This document shows positions 25,412 to 54,700 of a stretch of DNA of 64,000 nt, one piece after another. The translations under genes and the position numbers were made by a program. Source of the stretch: Bryum argenteum (taxonomy: Eukaryota; Streptophyta; Bryopsida; Bryales; Bryaceae); assembly GCA_037043015.1 (NCBI GenBank), contig CM073322.1:25758364-25822363 (forward strand), in the 5' to 3' direction. Position 1 is the first letter of the stretch, and each line of letters starts with the position of its first letter. Below the pieces are notes generated by a model that made no database searches, was not told the DNA's origin, and was given only the letters and a program-made list of their open reading frames with translations.

Positions 25412-27291
25412 ATGGATTGCATACCGTGCTTACGGAGACGGCACAATGATGATAGTAAGTTCGGCATCGCCAAAGTGGTCAATCATTCAGGTAGCTTCTC
25501 TTTCCAATTTCCGGATTCTAGAACGGGGTAGCGAAGTATCAGTAGTTATGGTGGAATGAACGAGGTTTTGTCTGTCGGTAGGTCAAATTGGGTAGTGGTA
25601 CTGTTGTTTTGGCAGCAGGTGTGCCATCATCGCAAGAAAGGCTTTCGACCGGGAGTTATAACAGCAATCAGAGCAATGTTCCATTCTCCCCGACACCTGC
25701 GCTGCAGCCTGGAAGACCCGGTGGAGCTTTGAAGTTTACCATCCAGGAGCTCAACAAGATCACTGGCAACTTCTCGGAATCGCACAAGATTGGTCAAGGA
25801 GGGTTCGGTTCTGTGTACCAGGGAAAGCTCCGGAACGGCACCACTGTTGCCATCAAACGAGCCAAAAAGGTCTGCAGCTACTCTGCTACTTTCATAATTG
25901 TGAGTCAGATTGTAAACCGACAGTTTTAACGTCTTTTTTGTTTTGCTCTGAAAATGGCAGGATGCATTTGCGACCCGAGTGTCGAGAGAGTTTCAGACGG
26001 AAGTTGACATGCTGTCCCAAGTGGAGCACTTGAATTTGGTCCGGCTGATGGGATTTTTGGAGGAGAAAAATGAACGCATTCTTGTCACTGAGTATGTGCC
26101 CAATGGAAACTTGAGGCAGCATCTGGATGGTATATATTCTGGAACCAATGGCACTCATCTCCTTCCATTTCGTGGAGGTGAAAGATTCTAATGAGAGATT
26201 TATTTATGCAGGTACGACTTACGGGGTGATTCTGGACATGAGCAAGCGATTGAATATTGCGATTGATGTTGCGCAAGCTCTTACGTATCTGCATTACTAC
26301 ACTGGTAATTGAGATGAGTAATGCGTGTTTATGAGTGTGAATGTTAACGAGTAATGAGTGTTAATTGGTATTTATTTGGTGTCTTGATTGGTTATTGCAG
26401 ACAGGCCTATTATTCATAGAGATGTGAAAGCTTCCAACATCTTGATTACTGATACCTTTCGGGCGAAGGTGGCTGATTTCGGTTTTTCTCGAGCTGGTCC
26501 ATCGGGAGATGGTGGTGCTACTCACGTTTCCACGCAAGTGAAGGGCACCGCTGGATACTTGGACCCTGAATACTTGACTACGTATCAGCTGAATGTGAAG
26601 AGTGATGTGTATTCCTTTGGAATATTGCTCGTAGAACTTTTCACTGGGAGACGTCCTATAGAACTGGGTCGTACCAGCAATGAGCGTGTCACTGTAAGAT
26701 GGGTAAGTCACCTTACTATTTTTGTCTACAGTCTTCTTGACATGAACTCTCACGAGCTAAGTGTGACATTCAGTAAAATTAGGCCTGCACTTACTGTCGG
26801 CATGCTTTACTGGTCTGGGCTACATTGAGTAGTCCTTACGCACATTTTCAAATGTTTTTCTCATCGTGGGAAAGAAATGTTCGCGATTTGTGAGAGAGTT
26901 TTTTTTGTGTTTGTTGATGTTTCAGGCATTTAAGCAATTCGTGGAAGGAAAGCTGAAGTCCATAATCGATCCGAAGATGCATCAACAGCCAGGAGACTCA
27001 CAGATATTGGATCGGATATTTGAGCTGGCTTTTTCATGCTCAGCACCGACCAAGATAGATAGACCGAACATGAAGGAGGTGAAGGAGATTCTTTGGAATA
27101 TCAGGAAGGACTACCAATTTAGATTAGATCGACAATCCGAAAATTATGATCCAGACCACTATGCTGATGACTCTTTTGACAGTAACAACCGGGGGCCTCC
27201 TAGAACTCCCAGGGGAAGTCGGTATTCTGGAGACTCGGAAAGTGTGAAGGCCCGAACAAGCCGACGGTCCGAAGATGCTCCGAGGCATTGA
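25412..27291 (+). CDS. Calmodulin-binding receptor-like cytoplasmic kinase (CRCK / RLCK-IV type)
   Basis: Ser/Thr kinase without signal peptide or membrane segment, of the family that includes Arabidopsis CRCK1-3 and is linked to calcium/calmodulin signalling. Exons: 25412-25490, 25619-25869, 25961-26129, 26212-26304, 26401-26702, 26926-27291; 419 aa. Seen: glycine loop GQGGFGSVY (85-93), Lys106 in VAIK, alpha-C Glu near 124, HRD (203-205), DFG (223-225), activation segment ending [10 protein letters not shown], then the lobe-C motif [10 protein letters not shown]. The N-terminus ([10 protein letters not shown]) has two cysteines that could be acylated (inference). Exon 1 could instead stop at the stronger donor after 25454, also in frame. 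The tail is acidic and Arg/Ser/Pro-rich. An AATAAA signal is at 27329-27334. Confidence 0.9.
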
Positions 27292-31313: not shown

Positions 31314-33830
31314 AAGGTCCCACAGCTTCGAATGCATGGAAAGGACCGTGTGCTAGAGGGCGGACATGCTGACGAAAGTGCCACGAACAATACCGCCAGC
31401 CGCGGCAGCGGTATTTATAGCAACTCCAACCCCCATAACCGTGCAATACCGCCACCCAAGATTCCCACGTCTTCGAACCAATAATCTCTCGCCATCTGGC
31501 AGCCAGCCGGGCAGTCGTTCCCGGCATTTTCCCTCTCCCGACTATGCCACTCCTGCCTCGCCCCCTCTCTGCTCGCTTTCTCTCTCCCCCTCGATCAATC
31601 CCTCGGCCACTCTCCGGCCAAATCCGATCTCGCCAATTCTCTCTTTCTTAGGATTCTTCCATCTCAACTCTTCATAGTAGAGCAGTGTAGCAGGAGCATA
31701 ACTCCCCTGTCTGTCTTCTATGTAGCGCAATAGCCAATTTTGTACTTCGCTTCTCTCATAACCCGAGCAGAGATTTCAAAAGAATTCCTCCATCTCCTTA
31801 GTAGGTTCTTCCCAGGCCCTGGATCGACCATGGATTGCATACCGTGCTTACGGAGACGGCACCACGAAGATAGTAAGTTCGGCAACGCCAAAGTGGTTCA
31901 TCATTCAGGTTGCTGCTCTTTCCAATTTTCGTTTTCTAGGACGGGGTAGCGAAGAATAAGTAGTTATGGTGGAATAGACGAGGTTTCTTGAGTCGGGAGT
32001 TCAAATTGGGTAGTGGTCCTGTTGTTTTGTCCGCAGGTGTGCCATCATCGCAAGAAAGGGGTTCGACCGGGAGTTACAACAGCAATCAGAGCAATGTTCC
32101 ATTCTCCCCGACACCTGCGCTGCAGCCTGGACGACCCGGTGGAGCTTTGAAGTTTACCATCCAGGAGCTCAACAAGATCACTGGCAACTTCTCAGAATCG
32201 CACAAGATTGGTCACGGAGGGTTCGGTACTGTTTACAAGGGAAAGCTCCGGGACGGCACCACTGTTGCCATTAAACGAGCCAGAAAGGTCTGCAGCTACT
32301 CTACTACATTCATCATTGTGAGTAAGACAGTTTTAACGACAAACATCAAACCGACAGTTTTAACGTCTTTTTTTGTTCCGCTCTGAAAATGGCAGGATGC
32401 ATTTGAGACCCGAGTGTCGAGAGAGTTTCAGACGGAAGTTGACATGCTGTCCCAAGTGGAGCACTTGAATTTGGTCCGTCTAATGGGATTTTTGGAGGAG
32501 AAAAATGAACGCATTCTTGTCACTGAATATGTGCCCAATGGAAACTTGAGGGAGCATCTGGATGGTAAATCTTCTGGAACCAATAACACTAATCTCCTTC
32601 CATTTCGTGGGGGTGAAAGATTCTGATGAGAGACTGATTGATGCAGGTACGACTTACGGGGTGATTCTCGACATGAGCAAGCGATTGAATATTGCGATTG
32701 ATGTTGCGCAAGCTCTTACGTATCTGCATTACTACACTGGTAAGTGAGATCATGAGTACTGCTGATTGAAGATGCAATTGCCGAGTGTTAATTGGTATTT
32801 ATTTGGTGTCTTGATTGGTTATTGCAGACAGGCCTATTATTCATAGAGATGTGAAGGCTTCCAACATCTTGATTACTGATACCTTTCGGGCAAAGGTGGC
32901 TGATTTCGGCATTTCTCGAGCTGGTCCATCTGAAGATGGTGTTACTCACGTTTCCACGCAAGTGAAGGGCACCGCTGAATACTTGGACCCATAATACTTG
33001 ACGACGTATCAGCTGAATGTGAAGAGTGATGTGTATTCTTTTGGAATATTGCTCGTAGAACTTTTCACAGGGAGACGTCCTATTGAACTGGGTCGTTCCA
33101 GCAGTGAGAGTGTCACTATTAAATGGGTAAGTCACCCTACTATTCTTCTCTACAGTCCTCTTGACATGAACTCTCACGAGCAAAACCATGAGAAAGTGTG
33201 AAATTCAGTAAAATTTCTGCATTTACTGTCGGCATGCTTTACTGATCTGGGCTGCTTTACTGGTCTGGGCTACTTTGAGTAGTCCTTACGCATATTTCAA
33301 ACGTAGTGCTAGTTTTTCTCATGGTGGCAAGAAAAGGTTGCGATTTGTGAGAGGGTTTTTGTTGTGTTTGTTGATGTTTCAGGCATTTAAGCAATTCGTT
33401 GATGGCAAGCTGAAATTCATAATCGATCCGAAGATGCATCAACAGCCAGGGGACTCACAGATATTGGAGCGGATATTTGAGCTGGCGTTTGCATGCTCAG
33501 CACCGACCAAGAAAGACTGACCGAACATGAACAAGGTGAAGGAGGTGCTATGGAATATCAGGAAGGACTACCAATTAAATCAACAATCCGAAAATTATGA
33601 TCCAGACCACTATGCTAACGACTCTTTTGATAATAACAGCCGGGGGCCTCCTAGAACTCCCAGGGGTAGTCGGTATTCTGGAGACTTGGAAAGTGCGAAG
33701 ACCCGAACAAGCCGATGGTCCGAAGATGCTCCGAGGCATTGATACTCGCAGGAACTGCAGCACATGATCACTGTCAGGTAAACAGAGGCAGAATCTGTAC
33801 GGAAAGGGAGCTTACCTCCAGAGGTTTTTA
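31314..33830 (+). repeat. Segmental duplication, copy 2
   Basis: This corresponds to 24962-27377. It begins at AAGGTCCCACAG and ends at GGAGCTTACCTCCA. It contains the decayed kinase. Confidence 0.9.
31830..33742 (+). pseudogene. CRCK-type kinase, decayed duplicate
   Basis: Same six-exon structure as 25412-27291: 31830-31908, 32037-32287, 32396-32564, 32647-32739, 32828-33126, 33383-33742. The N-lobe is intact (GHGGFGTVY, VAIKRARK), as are HRD and DFG. Two nonsense codons break it: TAA at 32992-32994 replaces Glu of LDPEY in the activation segment, and TGA at 33518-33520 replaces Arg in the late C-lobe. In addition the preceding Gly of GTAGY is Glu, one codon is deleted at about 32940, and the poly(A) signal is mutated. 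Otherwise the reading frame and splice sites survive, so decay is recent. A truncated transcript encoding an N-lobe and partial C-lobe could still be made. Confidence 0.9.
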
Positions 33831-35930: not shown

Positions 35931-36822
35931 ACTAATGAAACCGTCACAAGAATTCATGCCGTTAATTTATCAAATCTTGATTTGAGATATTAAGGCTTTC
36001 ACTATAAGAACATAGACTTTGTTTGGTATCCAACCCAGTAGATTTCGTCCAAAAAGGAGCTCTTCAAAATTATGGGTTGTCATCCTAAATAATCAAATTC
36101 AACACCTAGCAGGTAAAGAAGTTATTAATATGCAATTCAAGAGTATTACTAGGAAAGAAACTGAGATAGGCAATGTGTGTTTCTACCTTTCGCTTTTATT
36201 TATCCAATTATCACCAAGTAGCAAATGGTATCCCATTTAACTTCTTCATTACGACTTTAGTGAGTTTCGAAAACTTTCAAAAATATAAATCATAGTGAAC
36301 AACTCATGTAAGACAATATATTTCTTCTAGTGTATGCATCAAAATAAATATCTTCTAAATTTTTTTCTTTTAGCTTTTGCAAATGGGCTTCTCAAATTGC
36401 CAAGAGGGCCTTTTACTAGCCACATTGTTGATGTACCAAATTCAAAATTTCATGATATTGTCATTGATTAATGATTTTTTCAGGAATAGAATATATTCAT
36501 AATTGCATTGCATATGTACATCTCACAAAATTCAAGAGCGATGACCGAATTCGGTGTAAAACAATGCAAATTTTCTTAAAAAGTGGTAGAAGTCTAAAAC
36601 ATCTTTCGTCACAAAGTCTTTATACAACAAATGAGAAAAATATCCATTACGTACATGGTACAATGAATCGCTTTTCTGATGATTCTTGTAACCTAAAAAA
36701 ATATAATAATTCAAACTGCCGTAAATCCAAAACTACACTATGTAGTGAATTCTAAAGTGCTATGTCCCATAGGCACATCATATAGGGTAGGTCGAACTTC
36801 CATTTTATCCGGACACTCTTAA
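35931..36822. other. AT-rich spacer
   Basis: No gene recognised. Confidence 0.35.
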
Positions 36823-37083
36823 CCCCTAAAGGCCCATGATGTTTTGGGAGCTTGAAATCCCAACACTGACCACTATGTACTAATGCGGGTACGTCCAATA
36901 TTTTTGGAAATTTTTGATAACTTCAACCGTAGGATCTTGAAGTAGACTACCATAGGTAGTAGTGTGAAAATTTTCAACCGTTGGATCATCACTGGATGTG
37001 AGATCATAACATTTGAAGTTGACTGTAAATTTTTTTTGGCCTTGACCGTAAAAGCCGAATCGGCGGCCGTGGGCCTTTAGGGG
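36823..37083 (+). mobile_element. TTAA-type MITE, family B copy 1
   Basis: A 261-bp element with ends CCCCTAAAGGCCCATG and CGTGGGCCTTTAGGGG, flanked on both sides by intact TTAA (36819-36822 and 37084-37087). It matches 60583-60843 at roughly nine bases in ten, same length and orientation. TTAA duplication with C-rich termini fits the piggyBac superfamily. Confidence 0.85.
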
Positions 37084-37695
37084 TTAAATTAGTGCTACCA
37101 GCATTTCTCGGAGGGTCCATAAGCCAATGGGATTTTTTCCCAGAATCCCCAGAATTTTTTATTTGGACCCCCTGACGATCAATTTTGATACTTTTGAATT
37201 CAAAAATGGAGACTGCAGCCCCGGACAACTATGGAAGCCTACTCTTGGCATCTTAAGCCTATACATCAAAAATTTAGGGGGTTCTATACCCTTCCCCTCC
37301 CTTGCCCCGGAAAACACTCATAGCACTCATTTTATCCACACCAACCCCACAAGGGTTAGGTGTTCTTCTTTATTTATTTGAAACATAAAGTCGGTGATGG
37401 GGATTTGAGAGGTACCGTACAACTTGACGCCATAGCCTTGTCGGCATCCCATTAATAACCGGTACGCAAGCATTGACTTATCACTTGGTCGTGTCCGCAT
37501 CGACGTGCCACCGCGTCTGATCGTTGACTTTCAGGCCATCGCCTCCAATTCAAGCATCGTCCTCATCAAGGATAGCAAGATGCAACTAGACTCTAGTTGC
37601 AGAAAGGTTTATTTAAAAAAACAGAACAACCTACTCTGCTTTTTCGGTTCATGATTGTGTTCCTGTCAATTGATTGTTTATTCCTCGTCAAAGGG
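37084..37695. other. Upstream region of the small secreted protein gene
   Basis: No gene until the TATA box at 37696. The last 200 bases are GC-balanced and likely promoter. Confidence 0.4.
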
Positions 37696-37701
37696 TATAA
37701 A
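37696..37701 (+). promoter_or_regulatory. TATA box of the small secreted protein gene
   Basis: TATAAA in the context GGGTATAAATCACC, 125 bases before the ATG at 37826. This predicts a transcription start near 37725-37730 and a leader of about 100 bases. Confidence 0.6.
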
Positions 37702-37825
37702 TCACCAGAGCAGCTCTTCAGTTCCAATTCCTCAGTGACAAGTCCTCGTCCACATCGAAAGGCTCTCGATCGATAGTCAGTAAAGTTACACAGTTTAGAT
37801 TCGTTACTAGCAAGTTAGTCCAGCG

Positions 37826-38296
37826 ATGGCGAATTACGCAGGAAAGACAAGCTTGCTACTACTGGTGGTACTGGCGCTCGTGGCGGTGGTGGCGGCCGGT
37901 GGGGACTCGCAGTGCGCCAAGAGCTTCGCAGTGAAGGGACGCAAATTCAAGCTCCAGAACCGACCCCTCTCGCCAGGCGAAGGCGTGGTGTGCCCCGAGG
38001 GCAACCCCAGCAGCACCGTCACGTTCTGTAATGTGGGGAGCAAGTTGAAGATCTTCGGTAACTTCGCGGCCGCGGACCTCGGCGTGTGCGACCCCTCGGT
38101 GAACCCCTACACTCTGCCCGCGGGCGCCCTGGTGCCTTACGAGCAGTACGACGATATTGTTGTGCTCCGCCCCGAGGGACGAGTGCCGTCCGCGTTTCGT
38201 GTGATGGTTTTGAATGGCAAGAATATTGCGTTGGGTCTTAGTGGTCAGAGATATGGCGTCTCCACCTTAGTCGACGCCGGCCCTGCCAATTGCTAG
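37826..38296 (+). CDS. Small secreted cysteine-containing protein, family not recognised
   Basis: Single-exon gene, 156 aa. An N-terminal signal peptide is clear: a Lys-containing start, then the hydrophobic core LLLLVVLALVAVVAA ending about residue 24. The mature part has five cysteines (30, 57, 68, 88 and the final residue 156), is Gly/Pro/Val-rich and has no membrane segment. The odd cysteine count leaves one free or intermolecular. Codons are distinctly GC-rich (many C/G third positions), unlike the surrounding spacer, which suggests high expression. A TATA box lies upstream and AATAAATAAA at 38369-38378 downstream. I do not recognise the family; a secreted defence- or wall-associated protein is only a guess. 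Confidence 0.75.
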   Translation: MANYAGKTSLLLLVVLALVAVVAAGGDSQCAKSFAVKGRKFKLQNRPLSPGEGVVCPEGNPSSTVTFCNVGSKLKIFGNFAAADLGVCDPSVNPYTLPAGALVPYEQYDDIVVLRPEGRVPSAFRVMVLNGKNIALGLSGQRYGVSTLVDAGPANC

Positions 38297-38368
38297 CTAA
38301 CCAGCTCGACACTGGTGTATCACTAGCCCGGTCGATTCGGTATTCCGGTCCCAGTCACCTTGTTCTAT

Positions 38369-38378
38369 AAATAAATAA
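38369..38378 (+). promoter_or_regulatory. Poly(A) signal of the small secreted protein gene
   Basis: Overlapping AATAAATAAA about 73 bases after the stop codon. Confidence 0.6.
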
Positions 38379-38396
38379 ACTGCTCGCCTCTGTCGA

Positions 38397-39660
38397 CATA
38401 CAACCCACTTGTCACTTTGTCACATCAAACCTGTCCCAAGTTGTGCATGTTTTCGGAAATTTTATTTTTGATCGATTCGAGCATACCTGAGATGGAAGTT
38501 TTAGTGGCTGTCAAACCGGTTCAGTTATCGACCCCGGAATTCTTCTTGAATCTCTTATCTCTGCTTACATGCTTCCCACTTGTCGGTGGCACTTTTGTTA
38601 CTGAATCATACCCGACTGTCCCAAGTTGTGCATCTTCTCGAAAAACCTTGTTTTTGATCGACACAAGCACGCATCGACGGAGGTAATTTTCTTATTTGGG
38701 TAGCTATCGATCCGGTTTCTGTCCCCTTGGACTGTTTCAAGGATCGCTTGTTGGTGTCTACAAGTTCCTCACTTATCAAGAGCACTTCAGTGTCCGATTT
38801 TGATTTTGATCTGTACGATCAAGCATTTCTGCAAATGATGAAGTATGATGCGGTGGCCACACTGGGATAAAACTCACTAGTCCAACCTCCGACTGCAGAT
38901 CGAAAAGCCTGCTGAACTGACAGTTACCAATTTCGGACCACACCGAAACGCTGGAACATGAAAAAGGTTTTTCAATTTTAGAATGCTCTTTTCCTGTTCA
39001 TGGTGTGCACAGAACACCAATATTAACATAATTTATAAATGATCTTATCCTCCATTCTCCAACTGACTGCCGGTAGCAAAATGTTGGCGTTTATATTTAG
39101 GAGATTCAGCCTCGTATTCTGTTCCGAACGTCTGGACCGCCGGTCCAACTGGTAAATGCACATCAGCGTGGCTTTCGTACGAGCATGTGACTGGTGATGG
39201 ATAGTTGACATCGATGTGATATTTCCATAAGCCAAGATCGTGTATGCCGAAAGTTTCATTCTTATTTCCGTTAAGTTAAGTGATGCAATGGATCGGTCGA
39301 GATCGGATTCGTTCGGCAGTGATTGCGGCAGTGATTGCGAATCCTCCGCCGACGTGACTGTGCATGCGTTCTCAGCTCTTGTGAGTGCGCCGAGCCCTGT
39401 TTCAGAAGAAAAGAGCACTGTAGTAGCCTATTGATAGCTGTGTTGGGACTTGGGGAATTGAAGTCTGCATGGGGAGTCCAGGTCAAGATAGATAGAAACT
39501 CCGGTCCCTTTCTAAGGGGCCGACGTGAATGAAGTGTCCGTTTGTAATGCTAATATCCTGATGGCCACCGGACAAGGGGAAATTGGAACAATAATACTTC
39601 CCCGTTCAGGTCAACATATTTCAAAAACTTTAAACCAATTATTGTATTAATGATTGAACT
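38397..39660. other. Spacer with a diverged direct repeat
   Basis: TGTCCCAAGTTGTGCAT followed by a TTTTTGATCGA stretch occurs at about 38430 and again at about 38619. Short ORFs at 39020-39530 on both strands have no recognisable family. No gene called. Confidence 0.35.
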
Positions 39661-39662
39661 AA

Positions 39663-39960
39663 TACACAATGATCTAGGGCAAGTTGCCTTGTCCGGCTAC
39701 GGGAATCTCTAAGTCAAGTCACTCACATGAGTTCGAGCCCAATTGGTTGCTCAAGAACACATTAGAAAATTAGTAAAGTGGGGGACAAATTCTCCATATA
39801 TGAAGCCCTTGGGGTCGCTTTATAGAATGAAAAACAAGGTCAGGGGGCCAATCGACAAGAACGTGTGGCCAATTCATATTTTTAGTGCGGTTCATGCTTT
39901 AGATTTGTTCACAATAGAACACTCCACTAAATTTATAGTCTTGTAATAAAATCAAGAAAT
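39663..39960 (+). repeat. Possible SINE-like repeat
   Basis: GAGTTCGAGCCC at about 39730 matches a pol III B box. Downstream, GAAGCCCTTGGGG with flanking sequence matches, in reverse complement, the block near 49960-50010 (CCCCAAGGGCTTC). A dispersed short element is likely; the SINE class is inferred from the B box alone. Confidence 0.3.
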
Positions 39961-40014
39961 TACCCGGATATTATGAAATTGACCCTTCCATTTTTGTAGC
40001 TTCCAGTTTTTGGA

Positions 40015-40225
40015 CACTACTAGGAATTGTGTCCTGAAATGTTGATTGAATTATATGTCTAATATGATATAAGAGACTTGTGTCTGAAATGACATAGAAG
40101 TATGTCATTTTCGACATAATTATATCTACAATGACTTATTATTATGTCATTTAGAACACAAGTCTCACATGTCATATTGGACATGTAAGTCCAATCAATA
40201 TTTTAGGACGCAATTCTTACTAGTG
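40015..40225. mobile_element. CACTA-type foldback MITE with GGA target duplication
   Basis: A 211-bp element that is nearly one long palindrome. It starts CACTACTAGGAATTGTGTCC and ends GGACGCAATTCTTACTAGTG. The 3-bp duplication GGA lies at 40012-40014 and 40226-40228. CACTA/TAGTG ends and a 3-bp target duplication are the hallmarks of the CACTA (En/Spm) superfamily. The inner arms continue pairing (GACTTGTGT against ACACAAGTC), so a transcript would form a long hairpin. Confidence 0.85.
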
Positions 40226-40489
40226 GGACCATGGGTCATGTTATTACTTGTCTTCTACTTAATATTCCGCTAAAATGGGACGTCTCAACTTTTTGGACTA
40301 TAGTTCAAAACCATGTTATATTTCAAAATTTGAAGGTGATATATGGAGTATGATTATTATGATTATAAATACAAGTGATATTACAAAAATTGTGACACTA
40401 CAGAGTACATCATTGTGTAGGGATGCAAATGTAAGTTCTAGTGTGACAAAATGGCACTTGGAATAGTGCCATTTTCACAGAATTGAGGT

Positions 40490-40770
40490 TTTAATTGGAA
40501 TCCATCCCGAAATTAACGCTGCAATTTAACGGTAAAGAATAAATGTCTCCTCCAAAATCATCTATTTCATCATTTTTCTTATTGCGGAAACATCATTGCA
40601 AATCCGATAGAAAAAGTATTCTTGAATCGATTAATTTTCAAATAGAAAGTTATTAAATTTCATCTTAAGACTATGATTGTGTAAAAAATTCATGAAAAAA
40701 TAATTTGATTCCACATTATTGTCTTGCAATGGTAAACATGCTTTTATTTGAAAAAACACAATTGAAAGCT
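40490..40770. repeat. Dispersed repeat family R, copy 3
   Basis: Related to the right half of 35571-35930 (AAACATCATTGCAAATCCGA, then CATCTTAAGAC and AATTTGATTCCAC). The family's left half is missing here. Confidence 0.5.
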
Positions 40771-41313
40771 ACCTTTACTAAGATGCATGCTATTAATTCA
40801 TACTTCATTATATGGGTTTGAAATATTTTACCACGGAAATTAGTCTCAATTTCATACATGCCCCAAGTAGATCTGTCAAAAATGAAATTCAAAAGAAGAA
40901 GTATTGGCACTTCAAAGTTTAAGCCCTTTATTCAGAATGTTGTTTTTCAACACTATGGATATTTAGAGGTTGAGTATGTAAAGAAGAAAGTTTGTGTAGA
41001 TCTCTAAATATACTAATCACCTTAAATTCTTGACATTGTAAAGAAAAAGGTTTAAATACTCAATTATGGTTCTAATATTGCCAACCTATGACAACCAAGT
41101 GAAACAATTAGATTGTTGAAGTAACTTGCAATATTTTTCGAAGTATTTGTAAAGCATGGCACTACCACGTATTAGGTTGAATGAGGTTTTTATGAAAAGG
41201 GTGTGTTAATTTTGTCAAATCAACCACTCATTTTTGGATTTGTAAATTTGTGGACACTCCTTCAAGTGTTAAGCTTACATTAGCATTGCTAAATTTCACC
41301 TAAAATCTTGAAT
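40771..41313 (+). other. Upstream region of the CFAP20-domain gene
   Basis: AT-rich sequence without a recognisable gene or core promoter. Confidence 0.35.
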
Positions 41314-44300
41314 ATGGCTCATCGCCTATCACGACCAAGTCAATACCAAGGGGGTGCTTCATACAATGTCTTCACTGCTCAAGTACAACCTTAAAACTTA
41401 TCAATATTTTGAAAAATATATTTGTTTATACAAGTTATTTTGCTAAGATGTTTAAGTGTTTCATGCATATTTCTATTACTTGTCTATATAAAAAACATGA
41501 AACTTTAGGTTTCAGACATATATTTGATTGGGTCTTAAAATTGTAGAGGATACATCTATATTAACATGATATTGTACAGAAAATAATAAATGATTATGTA
41601 GTTTTTTTTTTCTTATTAGTGATGATATTACGTTCTTTCTCAAATTTATGACTTCAATAAGCATGCAATTTGTGAAGGTTGTGAGATTTGAGTTTAATAA
41701 GTGCCGATATTGAAATAAATCCAAAAAGTCTTGTAGAATATCATCATTTATTACATTGATAAGCATAATTAAATATGTAGTATGAATGTGGGTAATGGAT
41801 CAATATGAAGTTGTTTAGGTTCATGTCTCGTACTGAAGTACTATCTATATCAATATAATATTTTTTATTAGATATTGTCTTATTGCCACCTTATGCATTT
41901 ATTATTAGTTGACAATTTTTTCTTCTTGTTTGATGTAGGGGAGCAATCCAACTAATGACTGTCAAGTATGTGGCAAAGGCATTCAAAAGGTTAGCTCAAA
42001 TTCAATATATACAACTATTGAGATTCGAACATTAAGAAATATGTTGCAAATTAATATGCATTAGTATATATTACCTCATTGTATTTTTATGTACATTAAA
42101 TCCATATCCACGCAAATTTACAAATAAATTTGTAATCTTGATTTTGTGAAGTTATATGACAAATCCGTGAAGACATATATTTATAGTTTATGTGGGAAAC
42201 CCTTTTCAAAAATTCAACTTCCGAAAGATAGTATAGCAGGTCTAGATTGCAAACTTTAGTATATTTGCATAATTAGGTCTAGATTGCAAACTTTAGTATA
42301 TTTGCATAATTATGTCATATGTTATGTACATAATTTCAAGAATGTTTGGCTATATGAATATTGTGAAATTTTGTACTTCTAAATATTAATTTGTTTAAAT
42401 AGGTCTACACTTACTACAACCATTTATAGTATTACAAGTCTTTATACCAATGGGCCAACCCTTTGCATTTGATTTGAGGTAAGAGATATATAGGTTTTTA
42501 TACTTTTAATATTTACATTTATTGTAACTTTTGAAATTGATCACTTGTGTCTAGACAAGAGGCCATTTAATTGTAAATGATATCACATCATGAATTCAAG
42601 TAGTTTCATAATTGAATATTTTATATAAGTATATGATCACATGCAGTTTAGAATTTATTCCCCGCACCATGTGTTATACATTGGGAATTTCAATAAATTT
42701 GGAACTAAGCAAGCTGAATCCTTGGAGCAATTTGATTTAGTATATGTTACTCATTAGTAATGTACATAGCCAAATTTAGGTTGATGCGTACTTACTCTAA
42801 CAAATACATGTAATATAACAAATTCATGTGCACTTGTTGTACTCACAAGGATGGCACTTGACAATTTCCCAATTCAATAAATATGGTGTTTACTTTTCAA
42901 GTTTGATGTTAGTGGTTTTGACTTATATTATCATGAAAGATATATTTGAGTATGGTAACATGCTCAAAAATGGCACAATGTTTAAATTAGTAAGCTAACT
43001 GACGAAAGGCTAAGAAAGTTAAGTGCAAAAAAACAAAAACACAAAGTCTGTAGGAGATTGTACAAGCTGGAGTAAATAAAATTTTGATTAGAATAGTTAT
43101 GAATTTGGGTAGTAAGAATGGTAGATGCTCCTAAATCCTCACACTCTAGAATGTACACCATGGGGGTCATTAATCTTTGAAGTTGGAGTTCTATTGTACT
43201 TCCTCCTTGTATTCTCCTAGTGTGTTATTTTTAATCCAGTGTGGTTTTTAAGTATCCTACCTTCTCAATCATCTATATTTATAATTATCTATCAAACTAA
43301 GAAATCTTTTCATGGATTTAGGGTTACCGATACAACAAATACAAGCCGAAAAATGTACTTTTCTACATCATTTAGTGATCTAAAGTCAACACCACTGCAT
43401 TGTCAAATACCAATATCAATGGCAAGAATACTAGTCAATATCAACATACTTTAGAGTCTATATGATACATCTATATATACTCCATGTTATTAGTCATTGT
43501 TGTAATTAAATTTACTTGATAATCTTATTATCACTCAAATTAAAACTTGTTTCACATTGTGATATTACAAATTTTAAAATTCTCTTATATTGTCAAAGCA
43601 TATTTGTATTACAGGTTATTTGTGACATATGGTTATCATTGTCAATCAATGTAGCTGAACTTTTTTCATTTTGTTTCAAGGGCATGGTTTTTCGGTAAGC
43701 TTTCTTTTTTCTTACATCAAATTATTTAAAATCTTAAGCAAATACTCATTAATTTTTTTGATACATAATGTAAAACAAATAGAAATTTATTTCATGTTAT
43801 TATTGATTGCAAATTTATAGACTTATATTTATTGTATTTCATGAGTGTATAACGTGGCTTTCTTTGGCATGCAGTTCAATAGACACAATAGCTATAAATC
43901 CGGTTTGTAAGATTCGAAAAGTATTCACAATGCGCAATCAATTAAAGGATTTTGACTCAACTAATAGCTCTTTTGCTAATAATTGTGAGGATTATTTACC
44001 CCAAGAGCATGTCTTTGCACTTGATGTAAACAATACAACTCAAGTATTGGATGTGGCAACTCTACAAAAAAGTTTCAAAGGTTTAAATGATCTTACAAAT
44101 AGTAAGTCATGTCAACAATGATAATTTTTATCAGTTGATCCCTTTTTATAACAAGAAAACCAAGTAATCTTCTTTAATCTTACTCACTATTAGTTTCTTG
44201 ATAGGTACACAAGAAGAATCAATGAAGCTCCAGAAAGTTAAGATGAACAAGTTGGACACAAGACAAGTTAATATTTTTAGCATATTATGATAATTAATTT

Positions 44301-47300
44301 ACCTCATCATTACAATCTCTACAAAATTCTTATATTCTTAATTTTTTCTCATGGTATAATTGTTTTTTAATGTTAGGAAGTTGATGTTGTCATATCTGCC
44401 TAGGTTGTAATTTTTAGAAAACAAAGTTTTTGTCATGTTTTCTTGCTAAATTTCTATCACACAATTTTTTTCCATCTTCAATGGTATTTGATCAAAATTC
44501 CTTAGTGATATTTAACAAATGCAGTTGAATTTTATATTTGTAAATGGTGCAAGATTATTCATTGTTAATTCTATAGAAGAACTAATGCATTGCATTCGAA
44601 TATAGTTAAAAGTGACATAATTGTGTCTTTATGGTGATGTTTTGTGTGATATAGGTACATGTGGCATTTGGATCCAGAATTCCCTTAGCACTATCTACTA
44701 TACAAATTAATACAAATCTTCCTTGTGACAATAAGCCTCATGTCATTAGAAAAAATCATAAAGAAGGAGAACGCATAGAAGCAACTCACCTTATCAAAAA
44801 TTGTGAATTACCATCATTAATAATCAAAGAAGACCAAGCTGACAAACAATCGGTGGAAAAAACAGAGACGATACAAAATCTTCTCAAGCATGCCAATTCC
44901 TTCAATAAAAACCATCACAGATTTGGATCAAGAAGAGACCGAGGAATAGCAGATTTGAATGGGCTATCCCCAAGTGACGAGTATTGTGAAAGATCAAAGA
45001 ATGTACAATTCATTAATGATGAGTTCAAACTACCTCCTCATATGATCACCTCAAAGGATATAAAATGTAAGTCAAATTCCATCACCGTTGAAGATGACAA
45101 CTTTTTGGTACAATCTTCTCCTAATAAAGATCGTGTTTCAAGCACGATTTTCGAAGAGACTGAAACAACTATTGATCATCAAAGTCTAAATGATGAAGAC
45201 GGCTCTAAACAAGCACGACACTTGAAAGCATTAAATTGTGAAACTTTGAACCCTTTGACATTAGAGACAAATCTAGATAGAGAAGGTTGTGAAGAAACAA
45301 CGTTAACTTCTAAGAAAAAAGCTGAAGATGCCAAATCACTTGAATCAAGACTAGGTCTCGGAAAAAACACACGAAGGGGTTTTAATTCTGATAATGAAAA
45401 AAAAAAAGAATATAAACAAACAAGATATCTAGACTCTCCACCTGGAAGTCCTCCTTGTGGTTGGAAAAATTGCACTAAAGATGATGAAGTAAAGCCTTTA
45501 AAAATAACATCATTCTTCAACAAAATTTGTGATGACATGAATAATATTAGAAGTTCAAATGACACTGATGATAGTTTACATTCAATGGCTTCATTTGATG
45601 CCATAGAAGATTATGGAGATTCCAAAGAAGAAGGCATAAAATTGCTTACAAATGATGATGCGATATACAACTATAAAAAAAAATCTATGCAAGACATAGA
45701 GAATATTATATCAAATGTTAACGATGAAGTTCTTCTAGGAACAAAAACAAATCTAGCAAAATCAAGTGTTGGGGATTTTGATTCAATGTTTCAAGATTCA
45801 AAATTTGGGAATTTAATGTCATATGAAGATTGTGGCATTGGGAACAAAATGTCGTTAGATAATGACATTAAGCATGTACAACATCATCCTTCAAACAGTC
45901 CATACAAGTCTTTCAATCATAATGATGATATCAACAAGTATATATGTAATGATTTCATACCAAAAAATACATGCATCAAAGACAACATGAAAGGTATAAC
46001 ATCATCGTCTATCAGGAATGAAAAATAAATAGTACAAGTTGTAATTTCTTGTAAGTATTGTAGACTATATACATAGTCAAAGACAATGATAACTTGTAAA
46101 TGTCTGTACCAACAATAAATATGAAATACAATGAATTGGTGCTAGATTCAACATTTGGCACAAATTCTTGCGAGACATTGGGAATATCCAAAACTCTCAA
46201 AAGTGAGGTAAAACCTATACTTATTATAATGATTTGAGCTTTTAGGTATCGATTATTGATGATGCTCAAAATTTCTTAAATTAGTCCAAAATAATCTCAA
46301 ACTAGCAAAAGAGGGTGGTGTGAAGCCTCTAAGAGGAGTGTCTGGGTCACGGATTTTATTTACTATTAATTCTTGATGCTACAATGATGCACAATGTGGC
46401 ATTATGTCATGCTATATATGAGATGTCAAAAAAATCACTTATACTAAATTATTTCATATATGAAATATTGATGGATAAACAAATCTTAAATGTAGGATGG
46501 AGATATTGAAGATTGTAAAAAGGATCTTGTTTCTTCATATAAAACTTATAATGATTGTGATTATTTTAAATCTAATGACAATGAAGATTTGAAGGTGTCT
46601 ATAAATAAAGGTTTACCACAATTGGATTCAACATACAAGTGAGTAATATTTCTTATACCATTTGGTACTGGAAGTTTTTTGTACATTACGAATTAAAGAG
46701 TTGTTATGAGCATAATTTGTGTTGTCATGTTCAATACAAACAAATAGATGGTGGAAATCAATATAAGAAATTTACTTGAATTCGTAGCTTTGCCAATGTA
46801 ATGCATGAGGTTTGTTTTGTTTTATATAGAGATATAGAGACTCCAACCTCTCTTAAAAAAAACTCATCTCCATCTTTAGAATGTAAGGATTATAGTGAAA
46901 AGAAATGTGAACCGCTTCTTGAACATGAGAATCCAAGAATAAAAGATCTCAACTCCACTTTGAGACATAAAGGTACATTTCTTAATAAAATAATATCAGT
47001 CTTTATTCTTTACTTTAGTCAAAACTCTTACAACATCATATGTAGGAATTTCGTCGTTTAATTTTTTTAAATGTTGAGAAATAATGTAATCTAGAAGAAT
47101 ATCAGGTAGAGTATTAATTGTTTGCATAACTATTTGTTTCACTATAGTTCTTTATCTAGATTGGTTTGTTTGTAGTCTCCAAATAGTAATATATGAATAT
47201 AATTGTCTTTCATATCTCTACGGTAATAAATAAGTGTACAATATATATAGTTGAATTTTTTAATCATCCATATAACATATGCTTGCATTGTTGGTGCAGA

Positions 47301-47397
47301 CAATGAACGACCAAATGATGATTTGGATTTATTATATGATCCTACTTTAGATTGCTATTATGATCCAAAAACTAATAGATACTATGAACTCAAATAG
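41314..47397 (+). CDS. CFAP20 (DUF667)-domain protein, CFAP20DC-like
   Basis: Probable ciliary protein. Exons, all phases consistent: 41314-41382, 41939-41989, 42152-42239, 42403-42478, 43322-43433, 43615-43694, 43875-44101, 44205-44266, 44655-45993, 46146-46207, 46496-46638, 46830-46972, 47300-47397; 849 aa. Exons 1-7 encode a CFAP20 domain: YQGGASYNVFTAQ, YDKSVKTYIYSL, KIQLPKDS, VLQVFIPMGQPF, STPLHCQIPI, IWLSLSINVAEL and CKIRKVFTM follow that family's order. The rest is long, Asn/Asp/Lys/Ser-rich and probably disordered, ending LDCYYDPKTNRYYELK, a compact aromatic motif. Long size and an N-terminal domain point to CFAP20DC (human C3orf67) rather than CFAP20 itself, which is about 190 aa. 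The donor of exon 5 is weak. The gene is more AT-rich than its neighbours. Expression in sperm cells is inferred. Confidence 0.75.
42239..42312 (+). repeat. 37-bp perfect tandem duplication across a splice donor
   Basis: The unit GGTCTAGATTGCAAACTTTA (first 20 of 37 bases) starts at 42239 and again at 42276. The first copy begins exactly at the exon 3 / intron 3 junction, so the donor AG|GTCTAG exists twice. Confidence 0.85.
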
Positions 47398-48852
47398 AAG
47401 TCATTCTTGGATTCATTGCTTGTTATATTGTGTAACAAGCTTAGCTATGAAAACAATTTGTGTGGATCAAGTGCAACCACACTTGTGACTATTGGTGCTT
47501 TAAACTTGACCAAATTTTCTATTATTTAGTAAGTTTTCAAGTACTAAAATTAATAAAATTCTTGACAAGGCCAAAAAAATCTATTATGCTTATTTATAAG
47601 AATGAAAAAACATACTCTTTCTAATTGGAAGTAAATAGGAAGAAAACTTGACTTCTTAAAAAACATATAGCTCCTATATTACTTATATGTTTAAATAATT
47701 GTTATCCTTAGTAATATCTAGACTAAGCTATATAACTGGCAAGAACTTTATTCCAATGTTTTTGGATATAATCTTATATTTGTTTGCAGTACTCCACATA
47801 TTACCTTCACAATGGTCCTTTTTCAAAATTAAGTAGCTTATTGACATCCACAGCAATGAACCACCTTCCAAATTACAGCACCTTCCTGTAAAGTAAAGCA
47901 ACCTTGAGGATGACGCTTATGGTGTTATAATCATTATTTATGGTGTGAAGAGAAGGATTGAAATCCTCAACAACGTTCTCACCTTTTGTCAATGTAATTG
48001 TAAGAAATTTTTTTAAACCCAAAAGTAAGCTAGAAGCTTAGATAAAATATTTTTAATTTAATATTATGTTAAATTTTAATTAGTTAACATAATATAATTT
48101 TTAGTATAGTGTGTTCAAAAAATATAATAAACTAAGTTTATATTTGTGAACACATATTTTAGGAAAAGGATTTCCTTTTTGTACACTATATTGTTAACTT
48201 CTTACTTGTATTGTGTATGTGTACCAGGATCCTTTCTATGTAACAAAACGAATAGCCATGTGATGATTAGACATAGAAGTATATAAGGTGACTTGATTTA
48301 TGATTGACCCAACTTACTTTAGATCTCAGTTGATGAACAAGAGTACATAGAGATTAATACCTAAGGTGATGAATTATTCATAGTTGAAGTGATGGAAAGC
48401 AGTTACAATCATATCTGCAACTCAATACAAGTATATTGAAGTTATGGTGTTACCGGTGTAGAATGGTAAATAGTGTAAAATATCATATGTGGATGAAATG
48501 TTCAAAATCATTTCAAGTCAAACAAATTTGATACAATGATGTCATTTTTTATGACTTTTCTTTCCAAGAATCCTCATGTTAGTTTCAACGATGCTATGGA
48601 TAATGACTTATTCTTTGAAGATGAAAGTGGCTAGTTTGCATTGTGTTAGAAACAACATCTACAATTTTTCTCAATCACTAATTAAAAAATAAATTATATT
48701 CTATCAGCTAGATGGGGTGAATGGGGTGAATGGGGTGAAGCTCTTAATGTATAATCTCAAAAATATCCATTTGTTATTGTATTTGAAGCCCTATCAAATT
48801 TCTTGGCTCAAAAAATAGCCTTTTAGTGGTGAAAAGTGCCAAAACGTCTACG
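47398..48852. other. AT-rich spacer downstream of the CFAP20-domain gene
   Basis: No gene seen. A three-copy 10-bp repeat (GGGTGAATGG) is at about 48714-48742. Confidence 0.35.
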
Positions 48853-48930
48853 AGGGGAAAATAGTCCAAAGCTAGACAACTTGCACTCGAATCTATGCCT
48901 TGCCTTCAAAACACCTTTAATTTACTGATT
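48853..48930. repeat. Dispersed repeat family R, copy 4 (short)
   Basis: ATAGTCCAAAGCTAGAC followed by TTGCACTCGAATCTATGCCT matches the left part of copies at 30586 and 35571. Confidence 0.55.
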
Positions 48931-50013
48931 TAATTTAGATAGTCGGGCATTTTATTCTCACTATGCAATTGAGTATGTAAAACCTCGTCAATTATACTTA
49001 AGAATATAGTTTGGCACATTTAGAGGAAATATCGTACTATACATGTCTTCATTTACGTATATTGTAGTGTAAACTACTCTTTTGATAATGTTCCCTAAAC
49101 AATATGATACAACTGTGTCGTACGAGGACATGCATGCAACATGATTGTATTCTTTAAGTAATCAAAGCTAATTGTGTAAATCGAAGTAATGAATTTGTGA
49201 AAGCCTCATCATAAATATGGTCTTTATTTGAATACTGACAACTTTCTAGTTGGAATATTTTTAACCATATAACTTTGGTATTGGATTTAGTGTTTAATAT
49301 TTATTTGTAAACGTATAAATGTAACATGGGAAAGATATGCAACATGACAATTGTTGTATTTTGAGTGATTCTAAGACACACACGAATGACATGACCATGT
49401 TGAGTGACTTTTAGGCACAAACTACCTTTCAATTCGTGTATCTCATAAAACCTTTGACTCACCTGAGAGTCTGTAAGCAACTACCATCTTCCTACATATC
49501 CTATTTATTTTCAAAGCCTTGTTCTCATAATTACGTAAGAAACTGGATTCAGTTGATCGAGAATTGTTCGTCATACTTCAACTCCTTGACTGGAATATTG
49601 GTTGTTATTACGAGGGGCAAGCTATTAATGGGGAAAGAGCTATTAATGGGGCCAACGTATGACAAAATCCTCAATTTTAATTGGTCCATTTGTTGAAATT
49701 GGCCTCAAGAGCTTTATATGGGGAGTCAAACCCAATTTTTAGAAATTATATTATAATAGGTGGGAGACAAGTTATGACATGGCCCATGCTCCAAAAGTCC
49801 AGAGATACAAGAATTGAAGTTCAAATCATGGCCTAGAGGCCGTTGCTTGAATTTAATACAACATCAATATTTCACTAAAAGATTTTGATGTAAACAAATC
49901 AAAAGCATGGAATTTAGCTAATAATATAAATTAGCCCGAGAGCCTTGTTTTTTTCTTCTACATATTGGCCCCAAGGGCTTCACACATGGGGGAATTGGAC
50001 CCCCCTTTATTAA
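48931..50013. other. Spacer with SINE-like fragments
   Basis: No gene. GGCCTCAAGAGCTTTATATGGGG (about 49698) and GGCCCCAAGGGCTTCACACATGG (about 49968) are diverged direct repeats of one short element, also related in reverse to 39780-39815. Confidence 0.4.
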
Positions 50014-50440
50014 CCCATAAAAATCCTGGAAAACCAATTCGGTTTTTTGAGATTTTGGGCAACTCATTTTAAGAAAATAAGTAGATATTTTTGCCTAAGA
50101 TTTTTACTGGGTGCTCCCCATAGTGTAATGTGTACAGTATGTGATAAAATTTGCAAAGCCAAATTTTAATTTTAAAACTTTCATCTAGAAATTTTAGGTT
50201 TCAAGTCCAAAACGGGTTGTTTAAGATTAGCTTTTTTAAGTTTTTTTTTTTTTTTTTTTTTTTTGAAAATATGTTTGTTACCAAATTATTATTCAAATTC
50301 CAAAGTGTCCAAAGTCAAAAAATTTACCAATTTTACAAGGGCAGTCTCCAAAACTTTTAAAATCGATCTTCACAATTTATAGTAATTTTACAATTTTTTC
50401 TTTCAAGAATTGCCAAAATTTGGGATTTTGGATTCTTTCC

Positions 50441-50479
<39 letters not shown>

Positions 50480-50982
50480 CAAAAGTCACATACTCATAAA
50501 TGCACCTACTTACCGTTCAACTTTTTCTTAAACTTCACACATCATATGTGGTGCTTGTTTTACTATATTGTTATTTTTAGACCTTCTTTCATAAAATAAT
50601 GCACATTAAGGTCAAAAAGTGGAATGAGTCTCTAAAATTTTGCATGAGAATACCCAACTTGATTACCTACATGGAAAAAAACGAGGGATAAATGTTTGGA
50701 GTAACAATCATCAAGTTGCTCTTGGCACCATTTAGACAATGCCTCTCGGACAATGGCAAAAAAAAGTGTTGGACAAACTTTGATTGTTACGATCTCACAA
50801 ATGACAAACATTCAACGGTTGAAATTTTGACTAGTTCTTTGTATACAAGTTAGGTACAAGATCTTACAGTTCAAAGTCTAAAACAAGAAAAAAAAGTTTC
50901 TCCATTTCCCCATTTCCCAACAGAGGTGAAAAATTGCAGTTTTTGGTTTTGGAGGTCGAGGAAATGCTTAGATTTTTAGGGG
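50014..50982. mobile_element. Possible TTAA-type element of about 970 bp
   Basis: TTAA plus CCCATAAAAATC on the left (50010-50025) faces GATTTTTAGGGG plus TTAA on the right (50971-50986), giving about 12-bp inverted ends inside TTAA duplications as in families A and B. The interior is AT-rich with poly-T tracts at 50241-50264 and 50445-50479 and no coding capacity. The pairing of these ends may be coincidental. Confidence 0.35.
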
Positions 50983-50986
50983 TTAA

Positions 50987-51709
50987 TTGTTTAGTGTGTG
51001 TTCCAAGTGGCCCATGGAGCCAGTTGGGCTCAAAATGTGTGTAAACTTGCTTGAAGATTTGTTGTGTAGAACATCGTGAAAATTATTCTGAATTTTACAT
51101 GATCTACTATAATTTTATCACAAGATTGCACGGTTGAGATCTAAATAGCCTATCTTTATTCTCATTTATGATACTTTTCTCTCTTTTCATTCTGTCTCGT
51201 TTTTAATAATTTATATTTTACACACATAGGCGTAGAGCCCATGGCAGTTATTTATGACACTTTTCAAAAACTTATGTTTTTAAGCTAAAAAAAGACCTAG
51301 GATATCTTAGGGCTTAAAAGTAAAGCCCTTGCTACAGTCCGGTACGTAACCCTATACAGTATACAACATGCCAAACTAGTGGCCGAATATCCACGTGCAC
51401 TCGTGCAATTGTGCACTACAGTGTAACATTTACCATCATCATTTGGATGAAGAATGCATAACGAAAAATGGATGAAATCCAAATCATCATCACCCCTATT
51501 CAACGCTGACTACTCATTGCCCGGGAGAAAGTGACCCTGGACAGAGCAGTTCGTCCAATACCCGGCCGCCCGGATATAGACCCCATGCCCACGGGTAGGA
51601 TCCGGTAACCGCGCACGTCGTCTCCTTCTCCGTGACTTCGATGGTAAGGGAAGCTCAAGGACACAGCCAGAGCTCTTTGCTTGCATTTTGAATCTCATCG
51701 CAGCAAGCA
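50987..51709 (+). other. Upstream region of the PDI gene
   Basis: No gene. A CCACGTGC G-box-like element sits at 51391-51398. GC content rises from about 51530, as expected for promoter and leader. I looked for a CCAAT-N9-CCACG ER-stress element and did not find one. Confidence 0.4.
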
Positions 51710-54700
51710 ATGGCGAGACGGACGCTTCTAGTGTTGCTGGCGACATTGCTGCTGCTGGGATCCGTGGCATGTCTGGCGAATGCCACCGCCTCCGCCGAAG
51801 CTGCAGATGATGTGGATTTGATGACAGACGAGGCGGCGTTGTTGAACGCCGAGGATGACGGTGGCGAGGATGAGGAGCTTGAGGGATCTGGCGAGCCTGT
51901 GGACGAGAAGGATGTTGTCGTCCTCGGTGGAAAGGATTTCGCCGAATTCGTCGCCAGCAATCAGTTCGTCTTGGCAGAGTTTTACGCCCCCTGGTGCGGA
52001 CATTGTCAGTCGTTGACGCCTGAGTACGCTAGAGCCGCCACCGCGCTCAAAGACTCGGGTGTGAAGCTTGCGAAAGTTGACGCCGTTGAGCATAGCGATC
52101 TGGCTCAGGAGCATGGTGTTGAAGGATATCCGACATTGTACTTCTTTGTTGATGGCGAGAAGCGGCCCTACAATGGCGGACGCACCAGGTCTGTACTCTC
52201 TTTCAAAGCTCAGATTGACGTACACATTTGCACTTGCGTGTTGTTTTTTTTCCAGAATTAGATTGTACAGTTACTATGAGGCAATTCTATAACACCTATC
52301 TGCATCTGATTATACAATGAGTTATTACAGAGTATAGTCGCTCACAATTCACTGGATTGCGTTCCACGAAGTGTTAAGAGAGGTTTCAGCGTTTGCGTTC
52401 CGAGTTAATGAATGCTCGAAGATGCTATTACGCGTTGTTTAATGCATTTCGTGCTCTGGTTGATTTTGTAATCGGGCTCAAGAGACATGCTTCTGTATGC
52501 TCTTTTGATTCCCCACCGGGATCTTGACCTTTCGATTAGTGATAAAGATAGCAATTGTTACTGAATTGGAGGGATTCGCATGATTTGGGATATCGAATCG
52601 CGCTCCGAGTACTATAAGTTTCTATTCTGCGAAGTCCATTAATCATCGTGCTGAATTTGGTAAAATTGTATCAAAGATCTTTGTAGATGCTGCTCTGTGG
52701 ACAGAGTATCTGCTTGATTTCGTCAGGTGCTTGTCTTGAGAAATTCAGTCACGTATTTCTCAAGAATGCAGTGTGGTGTTAGTCCTTTCCGTTTTTCGAA
52801 CCTCCGAGTCCTATCAGTAATTATTAATCGTGATTTTGCAGCGATGAGATTGTTGCGTGGATTAAGAAGAGGACTGGTCCTGCCGTCAGCACCATTAAGT
52901 CAGCTGCTGATGCGGCTGCATTGTTGGAGAGTGAGGGTCCTAACGTCATCGCCTACCTTTCAAGCGTGGAGGGTGCTGATGCAGAGGAGTTCGCTGCTGT
53001 AGCAAGGCTGGAGGATAATGTCGAGTTCTATATGACCGCGGATGAAAAGATTGCGAAGGAGTTCGGTCTGAAGAAAGCACCTGCTCTTGTGTTGCTGAAG
53101 AAGCATGATGAGAAGGTTTCTACTTTTGGTATGTTCCGAGTAACTCTTAGGTTTAGGGTTTATGGTTCATTTTCTGTAACTGCTTACAGTCATGTGGCAG
53201 GCTAACGACTCATGGTGTGCGAAGGTCTAAGTATGCCTCAAAACTGTTGTTTGCGCAGATGGATCGTTCGAGAAGAGTGCTATTGCTGACTTTGTTGCTG
53301 AGAACAAACTTCCTCTTGTTATTCCATTTAATCGTGATACGGCATCAGTTATATTCGAGGGTGATGTCACTAAACAAGTAAGTTGGATTTATTCTTGCTT
53401 TTGCTTTCAAAGTCACTCCTGCAAAAGAGGAATATGTTCTCTATCTCCTGAATCTCCATTTTGATTACGTAGAGAAGCTAACTTTTCGCTTACTTTCACA
53501 TCAGCTGCTGTTGTTTGCAACGCCTGCTGAGTATGAGAAAGTCCGCGCTCATTATGAAGAAGCAGCGAAGGCTTTCAAGAAGAAGGTAAGACATGATGCA
53601 TTTTTGAAGCATTTTGGTTGGCTTCATATTCGGCCTTTCAAACCTGCTTCTTAAACTGCACAAAATTCGATTTGTGCAGATTACTTTCGTCCTCATTGAT
53701 CTTGCGGATGAGGAGGTGGCTACTCCCGTTTTGGATTTCTTTGCACTTGAGAATGAGGACACAAAGGTACTCTTGAATACTCCACTTGTCAATTTTTTAT
53801 ATTAATTAATCAGGTAGTTGCGTGTAAGTATTTGTCCTCGCATTGCACAACACGTTGACCACTCTCGAATGATATTGACGTTCTGATCGCAGATAATTGG
53901 CGTTTCTCAGTCGACACCTTTTCAAGTATCGGATTGTATATGAGCTGTATTGAACTGTGTTCTCATGATTTTTGTTTGCAGATCATTGGATTCGTTTCCG
54001 AGGAGTCTTCTGGCAAGTACTTATATGAAGGAGACTTCAGCGTGGATTCCATCAAGGTAAATTTTCAATGAGAAGCCTCTACATCATGCACATCAGTTGA
54101 AGCACGTCAATGTATCAATTTAGCGTACTCTAGCTGGCAAGACATAACATTGTTGCAATTTTTATTGCAGAAATTCTCGGAGAAGTTTTTGGCTGGAGAG
54201 CTTACTCCATTCCGCAAGTCGCAGAGTCCACCTGAAACGGTAAGTCGGATGTGCTCTTCTCTTTTCAGACTCTCTGATTTAGTAAGGATCGTGGAATTTT
54301 ATTTTCACAATATCCGTGTGGTCGGCCAAGATCAAGCTAATGGTAGACTGGTTGGTGTTTGCAGAATGATGGACCTGTGAAAATCGTCGTTTCATCAACT
54401 TTTGAGGAAATTGTTCTTGATAAATCCAAGGATGTCATTTTTGAGGTACTTGTTTGATCTGATTGTCTCCGTGTTCACCAAATAAGCTCCGTTGTTGAAT
54501 TTTTTTGCTTAGTGATAAATTGGAAAAAGTCACTACCTATACTCGTGCTGATTCTCCTCTTCTTCAGGTGTATGCCCCATGGTGCGGCCACTGCCAATCT
54601 CTTGAGCCAGAGTACAACAAGCTCGGAGAAGCTTTGAAGAACATCAGCACAATTGTGATCGCGAAGATGGACGGCACCAAGAATGAGCACGAACGCATTA

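Follow-up and report, generated by a model that had tools for sequence, protein, structure and literature searches.

The CFA20 (DUF667) domain is common to CFAP20, WDR90/POC16, and CFAP20DC (C3orf67). CFAP20, which we take to be the same protein as FAP20 and BUG22, has the CFA20 fold without a long tail (mostly 190 to 195 residues in solved chains). It has been located on the axoneme, both at the inner junction and at other sites (PMC12218126, PMC11779644), and a BUG22 copy is reportedly kept in flowering plants though many ciliary proteins were lost (PMC3268115). In WDR90/POC16, WD40 propellers follow an N-terminal microtubule-binding DUF667 domain, and in vitro the DUF667 domains from seven species were reported to bind both free tubulin and microtubules (PMC7500955). 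CFAP20DC is a little-studied protein that is named in one gene list for ciliary dyskinesia and in another for male infertility (PMC13410081, PMC7602585). Here, we analyzed a 64,000-nt stretch of Bryum argenteum DNA (the window; all coordinates are positions in it, position 1 being its first letter) and rebuilt from its sequence a CFAP20DC gene of 13 exons on the + strand at 41314 to 47397. We give a probability of about 0.7 to the reading that this is a functional moss gene whose product acts in sperm flagella or basal bodies through a CFA20 module that binds tubulin, a tether that is disordered, and a tag that binds a partner.

The initial annotation of this locus considered such proteins little described in plants, and the open-access literature searched is in line with this. 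No paper on a plant CFAP20DC was found by title using CFAP20DC, C3orf67 (among the matches listed), or DUF667 with sperm, nor among the matches listed for moss sperm proteins, FAP20 and land plants, CFAP20 and RNA polymerase II, or Bug22, angiosperms, and cilia. The C3orf67 matches listed included no title on a plant gene or cilia, and CFAP20 with Marchantia and the Marchantia locus tag Mp1g16110 returned no paper. By titles and abstract starts, the matches listed for CFAP20DC and C3orf67 contained no functional study of CFAP20DC.

A 13-exon gene model with a probable GC donor

As the initial annotation had proposed, we found 13 exons with matching phases throughout; joined, they comprise 2550 bases (849 codons plus stop), and all 12 introns have a GT donor and an AG acceptor. 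Six of the first seven exons, which had been described as small, are 51 to 112 bp long and the seventh is 227 bp, while the exon described as 1.34 kb (exon 9) is 1339 bp. The open stretch with exon 9 spans 457 codons, whereas the longest stretch had a mean of 102 and a maximum of 165 codons when the AT-rich block at 40001 to 51000 was copied 200 times with a first-order Markov model. The last exon terminates in ...YYDPKTNRYYELK followed by the stop codon, which bears out the compact C-terminal YYDP...YYEL motif noted earlier; this tag is conserved in relatives. With the end of exon 5 corrected as described below, the exons and their support are as follows:

41314..41382, + strand: exon 1 with the start ATG, the first in-frame ATG downstream of an in-frame stop at 41290; GT donor
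41939..41989, + strand: exon 2; AG/GT, phase 0; GSNPTNDCQVCGKG aligned with relatives
42152..42239, + strand: exon 3; AG/GT; YDKSVKTYIYSLCG aligned with Ceratodon
42403..42478, + strand: exon 4; AG/GT; aligned with relatives
43322..43421, + strand: exon 5, probable corrected end with GC donor; alignment and CFA20 score (initially ended at 43433, GT donor)
43615..43694, + strand: exon 6; AG/GT; aligned with relatives
43875..44101, + strand: exon 7, end of the CFA20 domain; AG/GT; PF05018 match to residue 187 of the 849-aa model
44205..44266, + strand: exon 8; AG/GT
44655..45993, + strand: exon 9, long, with VHVAFGSR and SPPGSPPCGW motifs; splice sites and phase, alignment, motif search
46146..46207, + strand: exon 10; AG/GT, phase match; little homology support
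46496..46638, + strand: exon 11; AG/GT, phase match; little homology support
46830..46972, + strand: exon 12; AG/GT, phase match; little homology support
47300..47397, + strand: exon 13, encoding the OCRE-like tag at the C terminus, with stop TAG; final 25 residues the same as in Marchantia, Riccia fluitans, and Calypogeia

In an alignment of 11 sequences, exon 5 as initially drawn contained four extra residues (in MARILVICDIW) opposite a gap in all 10 relatives. We re-examined intron 5, allowing donors after positions 43400 to 43435 in GT-AG, GC-AG, or AT-AC pairs and keeping the pairs that were in frame and preserved IWLSL. Among the six site pairs obtained, four were AT-AC pairs, each yielding a stretch shorter than that of the relatives, and the initial GT-AG pair (exon 5 end at 43433) was rejected for its four residues too many. 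The GC-AG pair, which ends exon 5 12 bases earlier, yields PISMVICDIW, of the same length as PITMVKRDIW in Physcomitrium; with it, the CFA20 domain scored 103.5 bits instead of 98.4. Because the extra residues are absent from all 10 relatives and the domain score went up, we moved the end of exon 5, which probably lies at 43421 with a GC donor and not at 43433 with a GT donor; the corrected protein has 845 residues. GC-AG introns are a known minor intron class. The junctions of the initial annotation were GT/AG and in phase at all 12 introns, and its end of exon 5 was probably wrong. Judged from the sequence, the moss CFAP20DC gene is real and intact, with predicted junctions.

A 37-bp unit occurs in 2.1 tandem copies at 42238 to 42316. 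Because this unit spans the border between exon 3 and intron 3, the donor sequence AGGTCTAGATT is present twice.

Homology supports orthology to CFAP20DC

The CFAP20/DUF667 domain claimed for the joined exons was recovered in the profile check set beforehand, with a match to Pfam CFA20 (PF05018) over residues 12 to 187 of the 849-aa model (95.1 bits, E = 5.4e-27; cutoff 24). Eight distinct solved CFAP20-type sequences matched residues 1 to 235 with E values of 3.2e-6 to 0.015 and at most 30.2 bits. The top protein matches were from Ceratodon (66%, 388 bits) and of lycophyte, liverwort, and fern origin, followed by animal CFAP20DC (35% identity over 96% of residues 1 to 280, E = 2e-38, up to 150 bits). 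The plant matches that scored better than the animal proteins carry no functional name, and across the domain and the AFGSR stretch the best named homologues are CFAP20DC.

At the level of sequence, an N-terminal CFA20 domain is followed by a conserved AFGSR stretch, then by a long linker of low conservation, and finally by an aromatic tag at the C terminus that is highly conserved. Animal CFAP20DC has the same N-terminal domain, an AFGS[RK]/AFGT stretch, a long linker, and a C-terminal YDPxLxxYxDPxxxxYYEL tag; it differs in that its N-terminal identity to the Bryum protein is 31 to 35% (four animals) and in that the SPPxSPP motif was not found in the four animal sequences inspected. The orthologues in Marchantia (MPTK1_1g16110), Ceratodon (M758_7G151000), and Physcomitrium (P0011) have the same architecture as the Bryum protein, which is more AT-biased than the plant orthologues. 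In public databases, plant orthologues are labelled "hypothetical" or "CFA20 domain-containing," and some models are incomplete, those of Ceratodon and Diphasiastrum lacking the tag and that of Physcomitrium the N terminus.

Because it is shared by all three families, the CFA20/DUF667 domain by itself would also fit a paralogue of the CFAP20 or WDR90/POC16 type. We consider this identity extremely improbable, as solved CFAP20 chains scored 30 bits compared to 150 bits for animal CFAP20DC, the Pfam search found no WD40 family at E values up to 1, and the length, the AFGSR stretch, and the tag fit CFAP20DC. These results support that the Bryum gene is an orthologue of CFAP20DC, as initially suggested, and that it is a new member of a family already known.

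Three protein searches, in which shared 5-residue words and length limits were required and each cluster was represented by one name, returned 18, 73, and 37 proteins, i.e., 92 different proteins. By name, these relatives include 14 land-plant proteins (mosses, liverworts, a lycophyte, and ferns), 2 from green algae, 3 from ciliates, and 69 from animals, and 4 lack an organism name; Protocruzia adhaerens (P0083) is a ciliate and Cymbomonas a chlorophyte. All taxa named fall in groups that form cilia at some stage of the life cycle. No seed plant occurred among the 88 named relatives, which, in searches with one name per cluster, limited sensitivity, and no seed-plant positive control, means "not detected" only. 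Together with the protein family, named homologues that all come from cilia-forming groups, none of them a seed plant, argue for the ciliary role that had been proposed. Based on these sequences, CFAP20DC is common to animals, ciliates, green algae, and spore-bearing plants.

For a tree, we used the first 290 to 300 residues of 19 CFAP20DC-type proteins, the relatives among them being hand-picked from the 92. The Bryum protein grouped with those of Ceratodon and Physcomitrium in a moss clade (support 100/99) inside the land plants (100/100) and was sister to these two (89/78). Branch lengths were 0.35 for Bryum, 0.42 for Physcomitrium, and 0.19 for Ceratodon; Paramecium formed a long branch.

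Base composition and integrity of the gene

The block at 40001 to 51500 is AT rich, with 26 to 36% GC per 500 bases compared to 40 to 58% in the rest of 37001 to 54000, and 36001 to 37000 again has 31 to 36% GC. The base composition of the gene follows this block. Its GC content at third codon positions (GC3) is 0.246 compared to 0.375 to 0.752 in six neighboring open stretches, which were taken in the frame of their open reading frames (ORFs), may include non-coding ends, and exclude a P450-like seventh piece that had been read in the wrong frame. The ratio of F, Y, M, I, N, and K to G, A, R, and P residues (FYMINK/GARP) is 2.28 for the whole protein, above the 0.86 to 1.96 of 11 relatives.

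The locus could be read as a pseudogene decaying in an AT-rich region, in line with the low GC3, the high FYMINK/GARP ratio, the apparent GC donor at exon 5, and a branch longer than that of Ceratodon. However, the frame stays open and in phase through all 13 exons, the domain and the tag are conserved, Physcomitrium has an even longer branch, and the FYMINK/GARP ratio of the domain (1.77) is not an outlier, lying within the range of the first 200 residues of the relatives (1.04 to 1.97). With an open frame and conserved sequence, decay is very unlikely.

The C-terminal tag is conserved and OCRE-like

Conservation along the protein, computed with the 849-aa model, is uneven. The CFA20 domain is identical to that of Marchantia at 105/173 positions and to that of Peromyscus at 73/173, and identities in the linkers are 19/142 and 19/209 to Marchantia and 68/211 and 42/136 to Ceratodon. 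Of the final 25 residues (...LYDPTLDCYYDPKTNRYYELK), which contain the YDPxLxCYxDPxTxxYYEL tag, all are shared with the liverworts Marchantia, Riccia fluitans, and Calypogeia (25/25), 23 with Physcomitrium and Adiantum nelumboides, 18 with Styela, and 16 with Peromyscus. In several public models the tag is missing: that of Ceratodon, marked partial, matches at 1/6, that of Diphasiastrum at 5/22, Adiantum capillus-veneris has no residues there, and the Riccia sorocarpa model lacks the tag. Searched with regular expressions, 65 of 93 sequences matched the tag and 78 of 93 matched [AV]FG[ST][RK], with Bryum included in both cases; the proteins of Blepharisma and Protocruzia as well as P0080 and P0091 miss the tag expression, yet have similar aromatic residues at the end. 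Thus, in the sequences compared, the tag is hardly changed across mosses, liverworts, and ferns.

The tag resembles the OCRE domain (PF17780) of RBM5 and RBM10 in its aromatic YDP..YYDP..YY pattern and in its beta-strands; it differs in comprising only approximately 25 residues and in scoring under the Pfam cutoff of 24.7 bits, and no RNA-binding family was found in the Bryum protein in the Pfam search. Tags alone scored 22.6 (Bryum), 20.3 (Peromyscus), and 24.5 bits (Cymbomonas), and whole proteins 16.5 (Bryum), 17.8 (Marchantia), 16.4 (Adiantum), and 13.6 bits (Peromyscus); for the tagless Ceratodon model, no OCRE match was listed. The Bryum tag covers 21 of the 52 OCRE profile positions, and the nearest solved sequences to the tag are RBM5 and RBM10 at non-significant E values of 1.2 to 6.7. 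The OCRE likeness of the tag is therefore a lead and not a membership.

In RBM5, the OCRE domain is reported to use exposed tyrosines to bind polyproline helices, its targets being polyproline motifs in Sm proteins of the spliceosome (PMC5127646). By analogy, the last ~25 residues may be an ancient single-unit OCRE-like polyproline reader that links tubulin-bound CFA20 to a conserved ciliary partner, a suggestion that we make tentatively; the tag is near letter-for-letter the same from mosses and liverworts to ferns and recognizable in animals, a green alga, and ciliates. If true, cilia would have in the OCRE-like tag a general docking module, one that is undescribed within the literature searched. 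The tag offers a concrete target for mutation and is the part worth following.

The same RBM5 precedent, the three tag scores near the OCRE cutoff, and RBM5 and RBM10 as nearest solved sequences would also suit a protein that works off the microtubules, as a cytoplasmic or nuclear factor for cilium assembly or in RNA work via the tag. The tag matches fewer than half of the OCRE profile positions, however, the N-terminal domain is the ciliary CFA20, and the named taxa are ciliated groups; we regard this explanation as unlikely, if less so than decay or a paralogue.

Predicted structure and proposed function

A structure model was built for the Marchantia orthologue with 18 sequences. In blocks of 10 residues, the predicted local distance difference test (pLDDT) score was 49 to 78 over residues 21 to 180 and nearly always <50 in the linker; the tag formed three strands and contained the highest-scoring blocks (pLDDT 82 and 85). 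In a Foldseek search, the top 18 rows were chains of axonemal PDB entries with CFAP20 (E = 4.6e-10 to 5.6e-6), and the next seven were D-glucuronyl C5-epimerase (E = 3.3e-4 to 7.1e-4).

For a functional gene acting in sperm flagella or basal bodies, we propose that the CFA20 domain would dock on the doublet or triplet microtubules in the axoneme or basal body of sperm, by comparison with CFAP20 and POC16/WDR90; the linker would serve as a tether; and the tag would fold into a small beta-meander and bind a conserved partner, perhaps one rich in proline. By this analogy, CFAP20DC most likely helps build or stabilize the tail of swimming sperm. A need for the protein limited to spermatids would fit the absence of seed-plant matches, and antheridial expression of the Bryum gene is predicted. 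Moss cilia occur only in sperm, and the moss orthologue therefore provides a system for testing the role of CFAP20DC without lethality.

Several observations weigh against this proposal. The mean pLDDT of the Marchantia model is 39.9, and its CFAP20 matches have template modeling scores by target of 0.58 to 0.62 and root mean square deviations of 4.3 to 6.5; the model is weak and therefore supports only the fold of the CFA20 domain. OCRE membership of the tag was rejected on its scores, and the proteins of Bryopsis and Paramecium miss the tag expression and have different endings. Cycads and Ginkgo gave no match in the protein searches despite their motile sperm. In the portions available, papers on the mammalian axoneme and ependymal basal bodies name CFAP20, not CFAP20DC (PMC12218126, PMC11779644). 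The ependymal study, one of these two, places WD40 proteins at the core of the inner junction in basal bodies and revises the earlier view that the DUF667 domain of WDR90 closes that junction, which weakens a simple inner-junction analogy for the basal body.

Neighboring sequences

Elsewhere in the window, a 161-aa stop-to-stop ORF at 37811 to 38296 has 61% GC over 37826 to 38296 and a start that by eye looks like a signal peptide; it matched no Pfam family at E = 0.001. The ORF at 14817 to 15305, likewise with no Pfam match at E = 0.001, contains within 15000 to 15305 a start, MVRTKEVARKS..., that resembles a degenerate histone H3 tail. Two kinase-like pieces lie at 26361 to 27291 and 31964 to 33204, with scores of 75.5 bits and 19.9 bits (the latter under the cutoff); their ORFs are alike by eye and are perhaps copies of one locus.

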